Origin: Actinobacteria bacterium IMCC26103
GTDB taxonomy: Bacteria > Actinomycetota > Actinomycetes > Nanopelagicales > Nanopelagicaceae
DNA: 64,000 nt
Assembly: GCA_002284875.1 (NCBI GenBank)
Contig: CP015604.1
Coordinates: 682,001-746,000, forward strand
Direction of reading: 5' to 3'
Part shown: piece after piece, positions 18,076-26,117 of the stretch
Layout of the letters: each line of letters begins with the position of its first letter
How positions within the stretch are numbered: position 1 is the first letter of the stretch
Made by a program: the position numbers and the translations under genes
The notes under the pieces: model-generated
What the model saw: only the letters and a program-made list of their open reading frames with translations
Database searches by the model: none
Told to the model about the DNA's origin: nothing

Positions 18076-19299
18076 ATGAAGAAAATTCTCAAATTTACCA
18101 GCGTGCTCATGTTTCGAATCCTGAATGTGCTCAGCAATGCCGTTATTGGAATTATCCTGGCTCGTCAATTAGACCTGGCAGATCGGGGTCATGTAGCGGT
18201 GATTACTTCAATAATCGGAATGGCTGTAGTCGTGATTTCATCTCCAAGAGGGGAGGAAATTTTGCGAAGTAGAGGAGAATTCGGTGATTCCAAAAAAACT
18301 AAAACTATTTCACTCAATATAGTTCATTGTATTTTTGTATTAATTGTGTCCCTGGGATGGATGTACAGAGCTGGAGACGTGAAACTTTCTCCCATCTGCA
18401 TCATATTAATCTGCGCACTCATAGTTGCATCATCCCTAAATTCCTTAGAACAGGCGATCCTTTTTCTTAAGTTCAAATCTCTTGGAAATCAATTGATCAT
18501 GACCTTCCATGCAATGGTTCTTCTTGCTTTTCTTGGAATTCTATTTCTGAATTCAACTCCTGGGATAGAAGCCTGGCTATGGGCATTTCTGATGGCCGAG
18601 ATACTTCTACTTATTGCTCTTCATAAACTGAATACCGACACTCGGATTGTCATAAATTGGCAAATTCGATTTAAGAACTTAAAGATTGTGGATGTAGAGA
18701 AAAGGCCAAAATTCGAAATCGTTTCTGTTTATCAAGGAGCCTTTTTTTTGCAAATCCTGACAATTTTGGTTTCTGTGAGCCTTCCCATTGAGTCAATTGC
18801 TCTTTTCGCAATTGGCATGACCTTGACTTCTTTGATGTCTTTGCCAATCGTCCCTTTTCTCCCAAAAATACTTTCAGAATCCGATGAAGTTACAAAATTA
18901 TTTCGCAGATTATCGGTACGAAGGATTTTCCTGACTTTATTTCTTATAATTATCTATGTCTATGTCTTGATGTATTTGTATCAATTCCTAATCCCAATGT
19001 TTTATGGTCAAAAATATTCGCCATTAGTCAATGCCGTTCCAATGATTGTGATGTCTGGATTAATGCTTGGAGTCCTGAATGTTGTTTCTACAATATTTCG
19101 TGGCAGTAGGAATTTTCTCGCGAGTGTTATCGTCTATTCTCTTGCAATAACTATTTTTGGTTTTGAGTTAGTCATTTTTGGAGACTCTATTGTAGAAATT
19201 CGACAGTTGTTTACATATCTCTTCTTTTCTCTTGCTATCCCTGTTTTTGCAGGAGGAATTCTTCTGTTTTCAACAAAAAAATTCAGTCTTCAATCTTGA
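18076..19299 (+). CDS. Polysaccharide flippase (Wzx-like, MOP superfamily)
   Basis: A 407-residue membrane protein with about twelve hydrophobic segments and a start (VLMFRILNVLSNAVIGIILARQLDLADRG, given here in parts) typical of RfbX/Wzx exporters: a first helix ending in ARxL followed by GxxAV. YGQKYSPLVNAVPMIV near 315 is a common Wzx feature in the second half. It would flip the undecaprenyl-linked repeat unit across the membrane for the Wzy-like polymerase encoded divergently 52 bp upstream. Its 3' end overlaps the convergent GT4 gene by 30 bp. Confidence 0.78.
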   Translation: MKKILKFTSVLMFRILNVLSNAVIGIILARQLDLADRGHVAVITSIIGMAVVVISSPRGEEILRSRGEFGDSKKTKTISLNIVHCIFVLIVSLGWMYRAGDVKLSPICIILICALIVASSLNSLEQAILFLKFKSLGNQLIMTFHAMVLLAFLGILFLNSTPGIEAWLWAFLMAEILLLIALHKLNTDTRIVINWQIRFKNLKIVDVEKRPKFEIVSVYQGAFFLQILTILVSVSLPIESIALFAIGMTLTSLMSLPIVPFLPKILSESDEVTKLFRRLSVRRIFLTLFLIIIYVYVLMYLYQFLIPMFYGQKYSPLVNAVPMIVMSGLMLGVLNVVSTIFRGSRNFLASVIVYSLAITIFGFELVIFGDSIVEIRQLFTYLFFSLAIPVFAGGILLFSTKKFSLQS

Positions 19300-20358
19300 A
19301 GCAAAAATTTCAAGACCAAACTTCTCCTCTGTTTGCACAGCAAGATCTTTCGAAGAGGTAAAGTTCACGACTCTTGAGGCAATTTCCGACCAGTCATTTT
19401 CTTGAAAAGAATTCTTTAGCACAATATTATGATCGCTGCTGATCTCCATAAAACTTGGTAGTAAGTTGTGTAAACACATAACCCCCAATGCATTTGCTTC
19501 TAAAATAGGTAGCCCGTAGCCCTCATAATTGCTAGTGGCAATACAAAAGAGTGCATTTTTATATAAATCCTTTAGGTTTGCGCTAGAAACGTGCTGAACA
19601 AATTTAATAAAATTTACGTCGTTCGAATGCAAACGAGATAGTTCATTTTCGACTAAATCATCCCCAACAACTATAAGCTCTAGGTCTTCTAGCTGGGGGA
19701 ACATACGAAGTTGATTTACTACATTTATTGCAAATGGTCTGTCCTTCCTCCATGAATTTGGACTTACCAGAACTCCATACTTCCTTGGAGTTACAATCTT
19801 TTCGATGGAATTAGGTTCAGTAAGGGGCCATGGAGCCCAAGTTAAATTCAAAATACTAATCTCTTGTGTAAATTGCAGTTCTATGAGTAGATCTCGTGTA
19901 AAATTCGATACAGCAAGTAATTTCCCAGATCGCCTTAATCCTCTGTTTATCGCTAATTGATACATTCTACCCAAGACGCCAATTCTAATTTCTGGAATCA
20001 AGGACTTTGCGGCAAGGTAGGCAAACTGGTCGTGGACCAATGTAATTGCTTTATTGGGTGGAAAAAAATATAAATGAATTGCATCACTGTGATCCACAAT
20101 CATAATTCGATTAATTGAGAATCGGGCCCGTACATTTAGTAATTGAAAAGGGAAGATGATGTGAAGCTCTAGGTAGCGAACATATTTCCTAAATCTAATT
20201 CCAGGAAATTTCGCACTTATTCTCGACTTAGGCCTAAGAATAATGATTTCCCCTGGAAATTGTTTCATGCATTGCTCTATCAATTGGGAGGTTTTAACCA
20301 TGCTATAACCCGAGCCAGGGTGGGACAGAATCAAGAGATTGATTTTCCTACGTCTCAT
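19270..20358 (-). CDS. GT4 family glycosyltransferase
   Basis: A 362-residue glycosyltransferase with the GT4 donor domain: GVLVSPNSWRKDRPF near 190, ELIVVGDDLVENEL, FVQHVSSANLKDLYKNALFCIATSNYEGYGLPILEANALG with the E-x7-E pair, and a preceding AVSNFTRDLLIEL acceptor-domain motif. The N-terminus (INLLILSHPGSGYSMVKTS) is the usual glycine-containing nucleotide-sugar side loop. AT-rich like its neighbours. It is the last glycosyltransferase of the cluster before the acyltransferase. Confidence 0.85.
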   Translation of the reverse strand: MRRRKINLLILSHPGSGYSMVKTSQLIEQCMKQFPGEIIILRPKSRISAKFPGIRFRKYVRYLELHIIFPFQLLNVRARFSINRIMIVDHSDAIHLYFFPPNKAITLVHDQFAYLAAKSLIPEIRIGVLGRMYQLAINRGLRRSGKLLAVSNFTRDLLIELQFTQEISILNLTWAPWPLTEPNSIEKIVTPRKYGVLVSPNSWRKDRPFAINVVNQLRMFPQLEDLELIVVGDDLVENELSRLHSNDVNFIKFVQHVSSANLKDLYKNALFCIATSNYEGYGLPILEANALGVMCLHNLLPSFMEISSDHNIVLKNSFQENDWSEIASRVVNFTSSKDLAVQTEEKFGLEIFASRLKTEFFC

Positions 20359-20479
20359 GCTGCCAAGGATAGACTGATTTCAGGGCAGATTAGAAGTCTT
20401 ATGATTTATAAACATCCGGAAATCATGTGAGTAGTATATTGGTCATGTTACCTTTTGGAAAAGCTGAGGTAGAAATCTA

Positions 20480-21529
20480 TTGATTAAATCTCTTGATGGG
20501 TTGAGAGCACTTGCCATTGGTTTTGTGGTTCTGTCTCATGCAGGCTTTCACATTGAAGGTAAGATTGGAGTGGAAGTATTCTTTGTTATTAGTGGATTTT
20601 TGATCACAAAAAACCTTCTCGAGGAATGCAAAGCGCTTGGCACCATCAGTTTTCGTAATTTCTACATCCGTAGATTCGCACGACTCTTTCCAGCTCTTGT
20701 CTTGGTCGCTATTACAACCATGGTTTTTTTAATTATAGCTAGAGAGTTTGAATCTATTTATATTGCAAGCCTCGTGTACATGTTGACATTCACTACTGAT
20801 TTGTGGATCTGGCTTGGCTCAGAAGTGATTACACATTTTTTTGATTTCTCATGGTCGTTGGGAGTTGAAGAGCAGTTCTATTTAGTCTGGCCAGTTATTT
20901 TGGCTTTCGTCCTTCGATTGAAGAGGATGCAGAGACCATTGTTGCTATTATTCTTTTTTGGATCAATCCTTTTTAGTTTTTTGTGGAGGTTGGGTCATAG
21001 CGGCTCTAACCATTCTGTGGATGCTCTGTTTTTTGGTCCATTAGCGCATCTAGGAGCGCTGGCGGGTGGATGCTTGATTGCTTTTCCAGCTACCTCGCGG
21101 TTCTTTCTCCTCTGCAAAGAGCGGTTTCCGACAGCAACGACTTTAACCGGATGGTCTTGCTTAATTAGTCTTTTTTATGTTTCACACTATCCAAGTCCAG
21201 TTCCATTTAAACTGGATATAAGCGCATTACTTTTTGCTTCCGGAGCATCAATAATTTTGGTCGGTTATTTAGTAAATAATGAAACTGACTTACTAGCAAG
21301 AGTTTTTGGTTCCAAGGTTCCAATTTTTGTCGGACGTTTAAGTTATACACTTTATTTATTCAACATTGTTTTTTTTGAAATAATACAATTCATCCTGAAA
21401 AAAAATCTTTCGGAATTTAACCTGGCAGAACTTGCAATTATGCTTTTTCTGCTTGTAATTTTTTGTTATGTCGTTTATAGGTTCTATGAGATGCCTCTAA
21501 GAAAATTGATAAACAGACTTCAAAATTAA
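20480..21529 (+). CDS. Membrane O-acyltransferase, acyltransferase 3 (OafA-like)
   Basis: A 349-residue integral membrane acyltransferase. It begins at a TTG with GAGGT about 11 nt upstream and shows the family landmarks: SLDGLRALAIGFVVLSHAG (catalytic-type His near 20), GVEVFFVISGFLITKNL, FYIRRFARLFPAL (the R-x10-H/R-x3-R region) and SWSLGVEEQFYLVWPV near 130, with about ten membrane segments. It ends after the membrane part, without the SGNH domain of the long OafA proteins. It would acylate a surface glycan using a cytoplasmic acyl donor. It closes the AT-rich polysaccharide region. Confidence 0.88.
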   Translation: MIKSLDGLRALAIGFVVLSHAGFHIEGKIGVEVFFVISGFLITKNLLEECKALGTISFRNFYIRRFARLFPALVLVAITTMVFLIIAREFESIYIASLVYMLTFTTDLWIWLGSEVITHFFDFSWSLGVEEQFYLVWPVILAFVLRLKRMQRPLLLLFFFGSILFSFLWRLGHSGSNHSVDALFFGPLAHLGALAGGCLIAFPATSRFFLLCKERFPTATTLTGWSCLISLFYVSHYPSPVPFKLDISALLFASGASIILVGYLVNNETDLLARVFGSKVPIFVGRLSYTLYLFNIVFFEIIQFILKKNLSEFNLAELAIMLFLLVIFCYVVYRFYEMPLRKLINRLQN

Positions 21530-21811
21530 ATTGCTATTCGGCCCTAACTAGAAATTTGAATATTATCGATGGAAAAGAATAGGAAATTATAGAAGCTTGG
21601 GGCGATGCAGTAACTTCATTAAATGTCAATCCAAGTAGGTTGTGAGGGACTCGAACTACATATCCTTCATAGGCCACATATGGATTCAATTGATCTTGAT
21701 CCACAACCCATATTAGGGATGGGGTCTGACAATTACTAGATTTTTAACAGAATTAGGATGGATTTGGGCGAGTCGTGGGAATTTGCAGGTAAGTCTCGGT
21801 ATTTTTCTCCG
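21530..21811. other. AT-rich intergenic stretch with tRNA remnant
   Basis: A 282-bp gap between the acyltransferase and the metallopeptidase gene. Apart from the tRNA-Lys 3'-end copy at 21633-21656, I see no gene, terminator or clear promoter. The reading frame of the next gene is open upstream to about 21758, but the signal peptide begins at 21812, so this part is taken as leader. Confidence 0.5.
21633..21656 (-). repeat. Copy of tRNA-Lys 3' end, putative attachment-site remnant
   Basis: The 19-bp string GGTTGTGAGGGACTCGAAC at 21638-21656 is identical to 23120-23138, the T-arm and acceptor 3' side of the tRNA-Lys gene; extending five bases outward gives 24 bp with one mismatch (21633-21656 against 23115-23138). 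The two copies are direct repeats about 1.48 kb apart. The rest of the tRNA is absent here, so this is not a gene. A duplicated tRNA 3' end is the usual mark of tRNA-targeted integration, with the intact gene at the other end. No integrase lies between them. Confidence 0.7.
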
Positions 21812-22990
21812 ATGCGCAAGACAGCTGTCACCTTCGCAACATTGCTATTTCTTTTAATTGAAATTCCACTGACACCTGCCCAAGCGGCCGTTAAGGCTGG
21901 TGCGGCGTGTAGTAAAGCAGGATTGAAATCTGTTGTATCGGGCATAACTTATACATGTATTAAGTCTGGCAAAAAGTTTGTCTGGGACAAAGGAGTAGCC
22001 GTTACAAAGTCAACCGCCGTGGCTACCCCAGCAGCCACCCCTTCTGCTGCACCGGTGGTAACTCCTACACCTACACCTGCGCCAACTCCTGAAATTGTCT
22101 ATGCAACGCTCTGGGAAAAATATGGCTGGAACAAGCCAAGTAGCGCCTCTGCAGTTGCCGCAACTGCCACCAAAGAATTTACGTCCTATGTTGCGACGGT
22201 AAGAGATCCAAATCCAAATATTGAATTTAAATATGAGGGTGGCGAGAATCCAATTGTGAAGAAATGGATAACGGATTCAGTCAATCTTGAGGCCAAAACT
22301 TTTGAATATCCAAAATTCGCAAAAACATATTATCCAGTCATTGGGCAAACTAAAAGTTGGTACGAGCAAACCTTAAAAAGCATTGGGCAAACACCGCAAA
22401 TAGTAAGTTCAGTTGCAAGCCGTTTCGATTCTTCAGGAGCTTATGGCGGAACAGAATTCATAACTTTTAATACGAAAAGATTAGAGCCAATGTTGGACTT
22501 ACCTAATGGGGTAGGCAAGCCTGGATTAGCCCAAACTGGTGGACACGAGTTCTTTCACACGATTCAAGAGTCTTTGGCAAAAAAGGGCCCGTCAGGTGGA
22601 TTGTTCGCTCCAAACTGGATCTGGGAAGGATCTGCGATGTTTGTCGGACTGCAGACTTCAAGTTATTTGGGATTCGATAATTACGCTACTACTGGACGTC
22701 AAACAAGTATTGATAGATATACCACTGATGGGCCAGAAACAAAGCTAAAACCTTTGATAGATATTTACCCCACCGACAATCCTAAAATTGATGCCTATGC
22801 AATTGGTGAGATTGCCGCTGAATTTATAGTAGCGAATGTAGGAATGAGTAAGTTGATTGGGATTTATGCCAATCTTGGCAAAGGAAATAATTTTGAAACT
22901 GCATTCAAGTTGTCTACCGGTGTACCACTAGCCGATTTCTACTCTATGTTTGAAGAGGTAAGAGTAATCTTGGGGGTACCTCGTGGCTAA
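21812..22990 (+). CDS. Secreted HExxH metallopeptidase-like protein
   Basis: About 392 residues. The start at 21812 is chosen because it gives a clean signal peptide (MRKTAVTFATLLFLLIEIPL then AQA). A short Cys-containing domain follows (AACSKAGLKSVVSGITYTC, then GKKFVWD), a repeat-like module often seen in secreted actinobacterial proteins, then a Thr/Pro-rich linker (near 75-90). The catalytic part has H245-E-F-F-H249 and a Glu at 272 in WEGSAMF, the H-E-x-x-H plus downstream E arrangement of gluzincin zinc peptidases. Substrate unknown. It lies between the tRNA-Lys remnant and the intact tRNA-Lys. A related C-terminus continues in frame right after its stop codon. Confidence 0.75.
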   Translation: MRKTAVTFATLLFLLIEIPLTPAQAAVKAGAACSKAGLKSVVSGITYTCIKSGKKFVWDKGVAVTKSTAVATPAATPSAAPVVTPTPTPAPTPEIVYATLWEKYGWNKPSSASAVAATATKEFTSYVATVRDPNPNIEFKYEGGENPIVKKWITDSVNLEAKTFEYPKFAKTYYPVIGQTKSWYEQTLKSIGQTPQIVSSVASRFDSSGAYGGTEFITFNTKRLEPMLDLPNGVGKPGLAQTGGHEFFHTIQESLAKKGPSGGLFAPNWIWEGSAMFVGLQTSSYLGFDNYATTGRQTSIDRYTTDGPETKLKPLIDIYPTDNPKIDAYAIGEIAAEFIVANVGMSKLIGIYANLGKGNNFETAFKLSTGVPLADFYSMFEEVRVILGVPRG

Positions 22991-22996
22991 ATCTTT

Positions 22997-23095
22997 TTTC
23001 AGGATTCGTTTAAGGCTGCAACTGGTGTTGAAAATGCAGACTTCTACTCGATGTTCGAAGAAATTCGTTCTTCGATGGATGTTCCCCGAACCTAA
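22997..23095 (+). pseudogene. Leftover C-terminus of a metallopeptidase-gene paralogue
   Basis: Immediately after the stop of the metallopeptidase gene, and in the same frame, 32 codons read FQDSFKAATGVENADFYSMF then EEIRSSMDVPRT and stop at 23095. They align with the last 30 residues of the gene itself (FETAFKLSTGVPLADFYSMF then EEVRVILGVPRG) at roughly 60 percent identity. There is no start codon or body, so this is a fragment. It suggests that one copy of the gene recombined into or next to a related copy that originally ended beside tRNA-Lys. Read-through of the TAA would add it to the protein, but nothing suggests that happens. Confidence 0.65.
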
Positions 23096-23117
23096 TTAAA
23101 GGTTCGATCTTCAAAAG

Positions 23118-23190
23118 TGGGTTGTGAGGGACTCGAACCCCCGACCCGGTGATTAAGAGTCACCTGCTCTACCAACTGAGCTAACAACCC
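23118..23190 (-). tRNA. tRNA-Lys (CTT)
   Basis: A complete cloverleaf on the minus strand: acceptor stem GGGTTGT/ACAACCC, D-arm GCTCAGTTGGTAGAGC, anticodon stem GGTGA/TCACC with loop CTCTTAA (anticodon CTT), T-arm with GGTTCGAGTCCC, discriminator A; CCA not encoded. Its 3' end is duplicated at 21633-21656. Confidence 0.95.
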
Positions 23191-23279
23191 ATTCAAACGC
23201 TTGAATGTTTGAATGCAGAGCAGACCCTATCAGGGCTGCGCGCCTTGTCTAACACGCTCGCTGCCGCGAGGATGGTGAC

Positions 23280-24298
<1,019 letters not shown>

Positions 24299-25567
24299 CT
24301 AGTACCGGTTGGAGTTTCCGGTGATGTCATAGGCCGATTCGGCATGGAATGTTGTATCTAGACCGTTTAGTTCGTCATCGCGGAATACCCGGAAGCCGAT
24401 GGTTTTGCTGATAATTGTGGCAATCAACCAGGTGGCGCAGAATGAGAAGGTAGCAACTGCAATTATGGCAATAACTTGTGACTGTAAAAGGTCGGTGCCG
24501 CCATTAAAGAACAGCCCATCCTTTCCTGATGCATTTGCAGTGACAGTTGCGGCAAAGCCAATGAATAGCATTCCAAGCAAACCACCAACGCCGTGAACAC
24601 CAACAACGTCCAGTGAATCGTCATAGCCATATTTATATTTACGAGTTACCGCCCAGGCAGATGCAACACCAGCAAGCAGGCCAAGAACCAGTGCGCCGAC
24701 TGGATTAACAAAACCACAAGCGGGTGTAATGGCAACGGCGCCTGCAATGGCACCTGATGCAACGCCAAGAGTTGTGGCTTTGCCATCGCGCTTTTTCTCA
24801 TAGGCAATCCAAGTCATAGCAGCTGCTGCAGTTGCGATTTGGGTATTGATCATCGCTGTCGCAGCAAGAGATCCTGCAGATAAAGCAGAGCCTGAGTTAA
24901 AGCCAAACCAACCAAACCAGAGCATTCCGGCGCCAAGCAGTACCAGCGGCATGTTGTGTGGGCGCATTGGATCTCGTCTGAAACCATCGCGCTTGCCAAG
25001 TACAAGTGCGAGCGCGAGAGCTGCAGCGCCAGAGTTGATTTCAACAACGGTTCCGCCTGCGAAATCTAGTGCGCCGAGTTTGTCAACGATCCAACCACCG
25101 GTGCCGCCTTGTGCGGCAAAGGCCCAATGCGCAACAGGCAGATAAACCAAGGTAATCCAGACTGCAACGAAGATAACCCAAGAACCATATTTAGCGCGAT
25201 CTGCAATCGCGCCAGATAGAAGTGCCACGGTGATGATTGCAAAAGTTAATTGGAACATTGCAAAGGCCAGCACTGGTATTTGATGTCCTTCGGGGCCAGT
25301 TACTTGATCCAAAGTATTGGAAAGCCCTAAGTGATCGAGCCCGCCGATTAACCCGCCATGTGATTTACCGAAGGCTAATGAATATCCATATAGCACCCAG
25401 ATAATTGTGGTCACACCGATTGCGGCAAATGACATCATCATCATATTTAGCGCACTTTTAACGCGAACCATTCCGCCATAAAAGACAGCCAAGCCTGGAG
25501 TCATAAAGAGAACCAGGGCCGCACTTGCTAGAACCCATGCGGTGTCGCCGGTATTTATATCAATCAC
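24299..25567 (-). CDS. amt: Ammonium transporter, Amt family
   Basis: A 422-residue, 11-segment Amt/Mep/Rh channel. Conserved blocks include TPGLAVFYGGMVR (about 23-35), DFAGGTVVEINSG (168-180), FGWFGFNSGSALS and DDSLDVVGVHGVGGLLG. The Asp of DFAGG is present and the second twin-His (VHGVGG) is present, but the first twin-His (H168 in E. coli AmtB, expected in TVVHIN) is Glu176 here. Such a replacement is known in fungal Mep proteins. The start is a GTG with GGAG about 9 nt upstream. It forms an operon with glnK, as usual for nitrogen-regulated ammonium uptake. Confidence 0.95.
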   Translation of the reverse strand: MIDINTGDTAWVLASAALVLFMTPGLAVFYGGMVRVKSALNMMMMSFAAIGVTTIIWVLYGYSLAFGKSHGGLIGGLDHLGLSNTLDQVTGPEGHQIPVLAFAMFQLTFAIITVALLSGAIADRAKYGSWVIFVAVWITLVYLPVAHWAFAAQGGTGGWIVDKLGALDFAGGTVVEINSGAAALALALVLGKRDGFRRDPMRPHNMPLVLLGAGMLWFGWFGFNSGSALSAGSLAATAMINTQIATAAAAMTWIAYEKKRDGKATTLGVASGAIAGAVAITPACGFVNPVGALVLGLLAGVASAWAVTRKYKYGYDDSLDVVGVHGVGGLLGMLFIGFAATVTANASGKDGLFFNGGTDLLQSQVIAIIAVATFSFCATWLIATIISKTIGFRVFRDDELNGLDTTFHAESAYDITGNSNRY

Positions 25568-25631
25568 AAATCACTCCGAATCTGCGTGGCTCGAGAGTGG
25601 CTACGCAATGGAGCAATGTTAAAGGGCTTAG

Positions 25632-26117
25632 TTAGTGGCTTTCGTTATATCGCTTGTAAGACGCGAGAATTTCTTCTTCCGCGGCGTCATGTCCGACCCA
25701 ATCTCCGCCATGAACTTCCTTGCCGGGCTCAAGGGTTTTATAGACCTCGAAGAAGTGCTTAATTTCATCGAGTTCATAAACAGGGACATCATCTAGATCA
25801 TTGAGGTTTGATTTGCGGATATCACCGGCTGCAACGCACAGCAGCTTGTCATCGCCGCCCTTTTCATCGGTCATGCGGAACATTCCGATAACGCGGCAAG
25901 AGACCACACATCCCGGAAAAGTTGGCTCATCTAACATAATCAAGGCATCCAGCGGATCGCCATCGTTAGATAAAGTATTTTTCACAAAGCCATAATCGTG
26001 TGGGAAACGAGTTGCAGTAAAGAGCATGCGATCTAGGCGAACTTCACCAGTTGTGTGGTTGATCTCGTATTTATTGCGTGAGCCAGCTGGAATTTCGACT
26101 ACTACGTCAAAGATCAT
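25632..26117 (-). CDS. ppa: Inorganic pyrophosphatase (family I)
   Basis: A 161-residue soluble pyrophosphatase that hydrolyses PPi to two phosphates. The family I residues are visible: EIPAGSRNKYE at 8-18, YGFVKNTLSNDGDPLDALIM (the D-x-D-P-x-D metal site) and GGDDKLLCVAAGD, followed by the K-x-x-x-Y-like HFFEVYKTLEPGK. Length is typical of the compact actinobacterial hexameric form. It sits alone between amt and tRNA-His. Confidence 0.95.
   Translation of the reverse strand: MIFDVVVEIPAGSRNKYEINHTTGEVRLDRMLFTATRFPHDYGFVKNTLSNDGDPLDALIMLDEPTFPGCVVSCRVIGMFRMTDEKGGDDKLLCVAAGDIRKSNLNDLDDVPVYELDEIKHFFEVYKTLEPGKEVHGGDWVGHDAAEEEILASYKRYNESH

Follow-up and report, generated by a model that had tools for sequence, protein, structure and literature searches.

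What has placed a second copy of the 3' end of a tRNA-Lys gene, pointing the same way, on the far side of a single gene in the genome of Actinobacteria bacterium IMCC26103 (G000)? This genome, probably that of a freshwater acI-type actinobacterium, is a single contig of 1,456,516 bases, of which a stretch of 64,000 nucleotides (positions 682,001-746,000 of CP015604.1, here called the window) was analysed; bare coordinates below are window positions, and other genomes and loci carry G and L numbers. An earlier note on this DNA had read the repeat as the footprint of a tyrosine-integrase attachment site and had offered two origins for it: either an element that has decayed, or a small cassette that owed its movement to an integrase gene outside it. 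Of these the second fits better and the first is less well supported, because units with the same end and no integrase recur in relatives, one of them nearly identical across genera. The features of the locus are as follows.

21633-21656, plus strand: attachment core, duplicating the 3' end of tRNA-Lys; direct repeat of 23115-23138 in 23 of 24 bases
21633-21769, plus strand: left end (LE) of type A, 137 bases, consisting of core, arm and a common 62-base module (21708-21769)
21812-22990, plus strand: cargo gene, with a signal-peptide-like start (by eye) and an HEFFH...WEG zinc-peptidase-like motif
23003-23095, plus strand: 30-codon C-terminal fragment of a second cargo-gene copy, from direct sequence reading and a homologue match
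23115-23138, plus strand: intact-tRNA copy of the attachment core, at the gene's 3' end; right cassette boundary, from repeat comparison
23117-23190, minus strand: tRNA-Lys(CTT), the intact docking gene, with an Rfam tRNA match of 71 bits

The repeat is as the earlier note described it: the two copies lie 1,482 bp apart in the same orientation and agree over 19 unbroken bases and over 23 of 24 in all. They are the only two places in the whole window, on either strand, with at least 17 of 24 core matches, and the best match in 100 Markov shuffles of the window was 19 of 24, against 23 of 24 for the remnant. The description of what lies between them also holds, namely one open reading frame (410 codons) and the C-terminal gene fragment, which is 79% identical at the DNA level, across 48 nt, to the terminal part of a homologue; no integrase was seen among the ORFs of this interval. 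The unit measures 1.5 kb and has room for one gene only. The G+C content is 0.50 at 23001-24000, 0.43 at 22001-23000 and 0.37-0.39 at 19001-22000. Just to the right of the tRNA, at 23280-23936, there is a gene with a GmrSD_C domain, which occupies the same place in many of the relatives that were read.

The cargo start at 21812 is our choice; the longest reading frame begins at 21758, within the LE. The protein has no Pfam match. Four residues, H245, E246, H249 and E272, are invariant in 11 homologues, and a structure model (mean pLDDT 78.4) gave one PDB match at E <= 0.001, to a collagenase peptidase domain, followed by weaker matches to collagenase and M1 peptidase with TM-scores near 0.4. 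Together these suggest, but do not prove, that the cargo is a zinc peptidase; it is probably a secreted enzyme, judging from a signal peptide read by eye. The cargo family was found in 90 of 296 family genomes at E <= 1e-15, often over the N-terminal part only. Conservation of the gene at this one place in all relatives, which the earlier note had named as evidence against an insertion, was not what we found: the family occurs at differing places, and its longer members have no one genomic location in common. Two distant homologues, with 47% and 39% protein identity, are themselves cargo of LE cassettes (in G209 and G144). The nearest relative of the window gene is that of G146. Another gene follows it there, and the 4.9-kb contig, whose left edge cuts into the homologue, contains neither a tRNA nor an LE.

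Is the docking site occupied in some relatives and free in others? The 19-base core, with at most one mismatch, is present in 91 of the 135 genomes of the genus, and in 11 of them (G000, G006, G031, G049, G056, G103, G104, G105, G108, G113 and G122) two or more copies stand in the same direction on one contig within about 10 kb. Among the 13 near-complete single contigs of the genus, four have a second copy (G000 and G006, and with 2-3 mismatches G012 and G132); nine have only a single tRNA-Lys end, as judged from a whole-genome scan at up to one mismatch and, for all but G133, a scan of a 20-kb stretch at up to 4 mismatches in 20. Absence of a second copy is not proof of an empty site, since G004 and G005, which lack a remnant, still have a right end of the cassette type next to their tRNA. 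When window positions 20001-26000 were compared with stretches of G003, G004, G005 and G103, alignment began only at the tRNA 3' end and ran rightwards, except that G103 also aligns at the LE itself. Other relatives have different genes between the repeats, and in G006, G049 and G031 an integrase lies there (by Pfam in G006 and G031). Nor did the repeat turn up as a common motif, the reversed-pattern control giving no match in the genus scan or in the family scan. Single-end sites, other genes and integrases being all found at this place in relatives, the attachment-site reading is supported. Most of the family genomes are fragmented drafts.

The integrases of G006 (L033) and G049 (L035) belong to a second family. 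It too uses this end of tRNA-Lys, without an LE and with a right end of its own (AAGGAAGGACCTACTGATTC...). As a candidate driver this integrase was set aside, since its repeats agree with the LE over no more than 22-24 nt and extend further into the tRNA.

The remnant proved to be more than a fragment of a tRNA gene, being the first part of a conserved, non-coding sequence of 137 bases (21633-21769). The window copy is 97.1% identical to the 137-base consensus of the copies in other genomes. A 27-base pattern spanning core and arm occurs, with at most 3 mismatches, in 17 of 296 family genomes and 6 of 17 genera, and its reverse in none. A search with the LE consensus listed 102 of the 296 genomes, many of the matches being only 24 bases of the tRNA gene. 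We counted as an LE site a match of more than 55 nt to one of three end types (A, B and T), and regarded the core as reached if the alignment begins within the first 12 bases of the end. The loci drawn from searches of the 296 family genomes then give 58 sites in 39 genomes; the core is reached at 52 of them, in 36 genomes of 9 genera, and 6 have no core. These counts are lower bounds, as type A was the only query and mostly two candidates were scored per genome; the end in G295 was found only via its integrase. Not included are type C, which is a fourth kind of end, any match no longer than about 55 nt, the overlapping locus L170, and L088-L097, which lie on contigs duplicated under G handles.

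Across types the LE is 135-148 bases long. Types A and B start with a tRNA-Lys end and type T with a tRNA-Val(TAC) end, and a module of about 62 bases is common to all three. Mixed sites exist, such as L136, where a type B arm is joined to a type T-like module. In the type A LE (window 21633-21709) both strands of the tRNA-Lys acceptor stem recur 73 nt apart, about the length of a tRNA; one base differs in the window copy, and the second strand is absent from types B and T. Type C ends (core followed by TTATCAAACCTTCAAACCATTCCC...) stand by tRNA-Lys-type cores at L048:14820-14907, L167:11963-12055, L079 and L018. The common module also occurs away from a tRNA core, in some cases followed by a gene (L148:1218, L149:5658, L150:411, L131:5059 and L144:2643); these core-less copies may be decayed ends or may mark another docking site. 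Exact LE patterns of types A, B and T were found in no viral contig.

What do these ends delimit? Both sides could be bounded, by a core, an end or a tRNA on the right, at 38 of the 52 core-bearing sites; the coreLys and coreVal labels of the loci do not separate the two tRNAs, because the patterns cross-match. The bounded units have a median length of 1,393 bp, with 29 of the 38 between 0.6 and 2.2 kb, although the 38 include two (124 and 244 bp) that are abutting copies of an end and not real cassettes. An ORF of at least 60 aa is present in 35, exactly one in 22 and two in 8. No integrase was found in 36 of the 38, and the other two have a tyrosine integrase. Forty-six core-bearing sites have an ORF, and at 38 of these the first such frame points the same way as the LE and reads away from it. 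Between the LE start and the first co-oriented ORF the median distance is 180.5 nt, a spacing that made us consider an LE promoter; we do not claim one. Profiles matched by cargo in the units tested were TMEM175, Trypsin, Multi_Drug_Res, SOUL and Gly_transporter.

Integrons hold rows of mostly co-oriented one-gene units whose order can change, and tandem, co-oriented single-gene units are found here as well. There is a row of four units in G209, with no tRNA in the 12-kb stretch, and one of three units in G204 with tRNA-Val at its end; G108 and G261 each have two units with tRNA-Lys at the end; and G258 has two units and an open third, with no tRNA on the contig. Wherever the end of an array could be located, it lay at a tRNA-Lys or a tRNA-Val.

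Some LE elements are longer and have an integrase of their own. A complete one in G031 has a type B end, is 6.28 kb long and lies at tRNA-Lys with its integrase beside the tRNA; another in G295 has a type T end, is 5.1 kb long and lies at tRNA-Val, again with an integrase of the same family beside the tRNA. A partial LE with an integrase is found at tRNA-Val in G068. At E <= 1e-20 this integrase family matched 12 of the 296 genomes, as against 39 with an LE. In 9 of the 12 (that is, 9 of 296) the integrase lies beside tRNA-Val (G068, G144, G295, G039, G067 and G021) or tRNA-Lys (G031, G228 and G066); in G184 the neighbour is tRNA-Arg, and in G270 and G151 no whole tRNA adjoins it. A type II methyltransferase adjoining a restriction enzyme was recognised by profile in G031, G295 and G228, while two proteins tested from G068 had no defence-model match. 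The type II restriction-modification pairs differ among the integrase-bearing elements at L034, L186 and L187, and the autonomous form may therefore spread by serving as a defence element. Among phage records, 22 matched the integrase, the best with 30.5% identity over 86%; in viral contigs six stretches fitted its pattern and none was confirmed as this integrase.

Some right ends are common to the two kinds of unit. A CCGCCGA...TCGGCG-like motif marks the right ends of the integrase units of G031, G066, G068, G144, G270 and G295, and these cluster with the right ends of four integrase-less cassettes, in G170 (L152), G204 (L135 and L136) and G258 (L078); the cluster contains one artefact (in G278, a second end copy) and counts G031, G270 and G295 twice. 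A different right end is common to two tRNA-Val units (G201 and G205) and two tRNA-Lys units (G261 and G286). The G228 integrase element lies outside the first cluster, and no right end for comparison was obtained from G039, G067 and G021. Short ORFs beside cores (cluster c10) were not counted as genes, being translations of a conserved right end. The right end of the window unit matched none of those compared.

G000 itself has no match to the LE-linked integrase family at E <= 1e-20. It has three tyrosine recombinases, two of them Xer-like by our reading and the third a protein of 399 aa with tRNA-Leu nearby. The latter (G000:C1:77494-78036; L100, L169) is a phage-type integrase with the tRNA-Leu on the same 10-kb stretch, which also has an ORF resembling, by eye, a restriction enzyme or methylase; this locus is probably another integrated element.

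Have such units moved between genomes? A transporter unit is 99.5% identical over 997 nt in G261 and G286, which belong to different genera and whose argG genes are 79.5% identical. The identity begins at the core on the left, ends within tRNA-Lys-derived sequence on the right, and is bordered by unrelated flanks. The window gene is 88.0% identical over 853 nt to that of G146, a member of another genus, against 75.0% and 75.4% for argG, which blastn aligned in two pieces. A trypsin-like gene and a TMEM175 gene stand in opposite order in G105 and G108, and G105 differs from G113 by one end-plus-gene unit. Of 32 cargo pairs, several aligned over only part of the gene, 24 have an argG value; in half of these the cargo identity is above that of argG (by 5 points or more in 7) and in the other half below it, 12 pairs each. 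From this even split, cargo held in common seems often to be of old descent or related in part only. For one pair at least, G261 and G286, cassettes with the same kind of end appear from their sequences to have passed between genera.

We propose that the window unit is a non-autonomous cassette that was inserted at tRNA-Lys and moved in trans by the tyrosine integrase of LE elements, a reading to which we give a probability of about 0.72. The segment 21633-23116 would be the integrated cassette, made up of the LE with its copy of the tRNA-Lys 3' end, one gene, and the boundary with the intact tRNA-Lys. The driver, which would both insert and remove cassettes of this family, would be the tyrosine integrase of the longer relatives, which combine an integrase with restriction-modification genes and dock at tRNA-Lys or tRNA-Val. 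A circular form of the cassette would carry one core, which the integrase would join to the 3' end of the tRNA gene; the core brought in by the cassette would rebuild the tRNA, and the displaced old end would stay behind as the remnant on the far side. Further insertions at the tRNA would push older units away from it and so build rows of one-gene units. We infer the circle, the order of the steps, the mobilisation in trans and the identity of the driver from the anatomy described above (the repeat, the conserved LE, the rows, the ends common to these units and integrase elements, and one sharp-ended transfer between genera) together with what is established about tyrosine integrases. The window cassette itself is probably stranded, as the driver integrase was not found in G000 and no known right-end motif is left. 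An unmatched right end beside a gene fragment suggests, too, that the unit may be immobile.

These last features would also be expected if a complete element of the same family had once stood at tRNA-Lys and had lost its integrase and most of its genes, leaving the peptidase-like gene. Integrase-bearing LE elements that are complete, at 5-6 kb, do exist, and the window unit has both a gene fragment and no recognised right end. Decay nevertheless seems unlikely to us. Compact LE units with one gene are found repeatedly, and four share their right-end motif with integrase elements; one is 99.5% identical across genera (G261/G286); and LE cassettes in G209 and G144 carry the two distant homologues of the window gene mentioned above. 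The recurrence of compact units and the intergenus identity suggest that such units move as they are.

Could cassettes be exchanged by homologous recombination through LE and tRNA sequences, with no integrase taking part? At about 137 nt the highly conserved LE is perhaps long enough to help, and the partial copies without a core (6 of 58) are of the kind that recombination or deletion would leave. The identity between G261 and G286, however, stops at the core on one side and inside tRNA-derived sequence on the other, with unrelated flanks, though this is one pair. Furthermore, the tRNA-Lys and tRNA-Val types of LE each carry the matching tRNA end, and integrase-bearing units have the same ends. 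We regard this alternative as improbable.

A third possibility is a mechanism of the integron kind, with folded attC-type sites and single-strand recombination. The rows of one-gene units and the co-orientation of the first ORF at 38 of 46 sites would suit it, and the DNA fold of type B, tried like the others on one copy, is slightly better than shuffles (z about -1.6; 11 and 14 of 200 shuffles were as good). But the DNA folds of types A and T are no better than shuffles (z -0.59 to 0.35), nor are the RNA folds of the LE copies tried (z -0.36 to -0.96), and the anchor is the 3' end of a tRNA; this mechanism is very unlikely to operate here. Finally, that the repeat arose by chance or belongs to a functional tRNA-like RNA gene can be dismissed as highly improbable, since 23 matching bases exceed the shuffle maximum of 19 and, despite the recurrence of both acceptor-stem strands 73 nt apart in the type A LE, the LE has no Rfam match and no significant type A fold, and types B and T lack the second strand.

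How much of this is new? It was already known that cassettes dock at tRNAs and that elements without an integrase stack there. One freshwater example comes from 'Ca. Methylopumilus', a member of a different phylum from the window organism. Its additive island has recurring 20-nt repeats of tRNA-Lys(ctt) in varying number, with island sizes from 330 bp to 42 kb (PMC10872708). The window unit is of the kind of a tRNA-docked additive-island cassette, being small, lying at a tRNA and having a partial tRNA repeat at its far end. The resemblance to Methylopumilus extends to freshwater habitat, streamlined genomes and repeats of the tRNA-Lys(CTT) end, but the repeat there is a different one and, in the part of the paper available, no conserved end beyond it is described (PMC10872708). 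In the marine 'Ca. Actinomarinales', tRNA-docked cassettes with partial tRNA repeats lie at an envelope-sugar island and have been transferred between genera, and similar islands are known in Nanopelagicales (PMC7771536). These cassettes too are small units at tRNAs in streamlined actinobacteria, at the edge of a sugar-decoration island; the available text describes no conserved end for them, and the word 'integrase' does not occur in the main text (PMC7771536), whereas here a modular LE is common to two tRNA docking sites and to units with an integrase.

CIMEs are known to keep att sites while having lost their integration genes and to accrete in tandem, with one example at tRNA-Lys (PMC5704250). 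The window cassette, flanked by direct repeats of the end of its target gene as by attL and attR, resembles them in having att sites with no integrase found between them, as the rows do in tandem stacking; CIMEs, though, are decayed conjugative or mobilizable elements (PMC5704250), while the units here mostly have 1-2 genes and an LE conserved across genera. The tycheposons of Prochlorococcus are tRNA-linked cargo elements of 4-200 kb with tyrosine recombinases, as described in the portion consulted (PMC10872708). They share with the present units tRNA-linked cargo in streamlined plankton, but the latter are mostly 0.6-2.2 kb and without an integrase; at 1.5 kb and with no recombinase, the window unit lacks both the size of at least 4 kb and the tyrosine recombinase of its own that define a tycheposon. 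The accessible parts of two further papers (PMC11039613 and PMC10202952) contain nothing on such tRNA-docked cassettes. Within the full-text literature searched, which leaves most subscription papers outside, we found no description of this LE or its link to an integrase, and none of one end family serving two tRNAs.

With the integron, the system has in common co-oriented rows of one-gene units and changed gene order; it departs from it in its tRNA anchor and in an end that, for two of the three types, does not fold strongly. It may be, at somewhat less than even odds, that a tRNA-Lys/tRNA-Val platform, a recombination end of 135-148 bases and the integrase of restriction-modification elements, perhaps encoded in another genome, make up an integron-like system that is differently built. 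That cassettes carry differing genes, can stand in rows and in one instance at least appear to have crossed genera suggests a simple means of swapping genes that is distinct from the known integrons. A tRNA remnant such as the one in the window can be the first sign of an organised family of cassettes, and because the end is recognisable, its units can be found by sequence. If the proposal is true, an integron-like tRNA platform allows gene-by-gene exchange among streamlined freshwater actinobacteria, with many of the genes apparently encoding secreted proteins. This would be a testable route by which abundant small-genome freshwater bacteria could exchange single genes, sometimes between genera, without large mobile elements.
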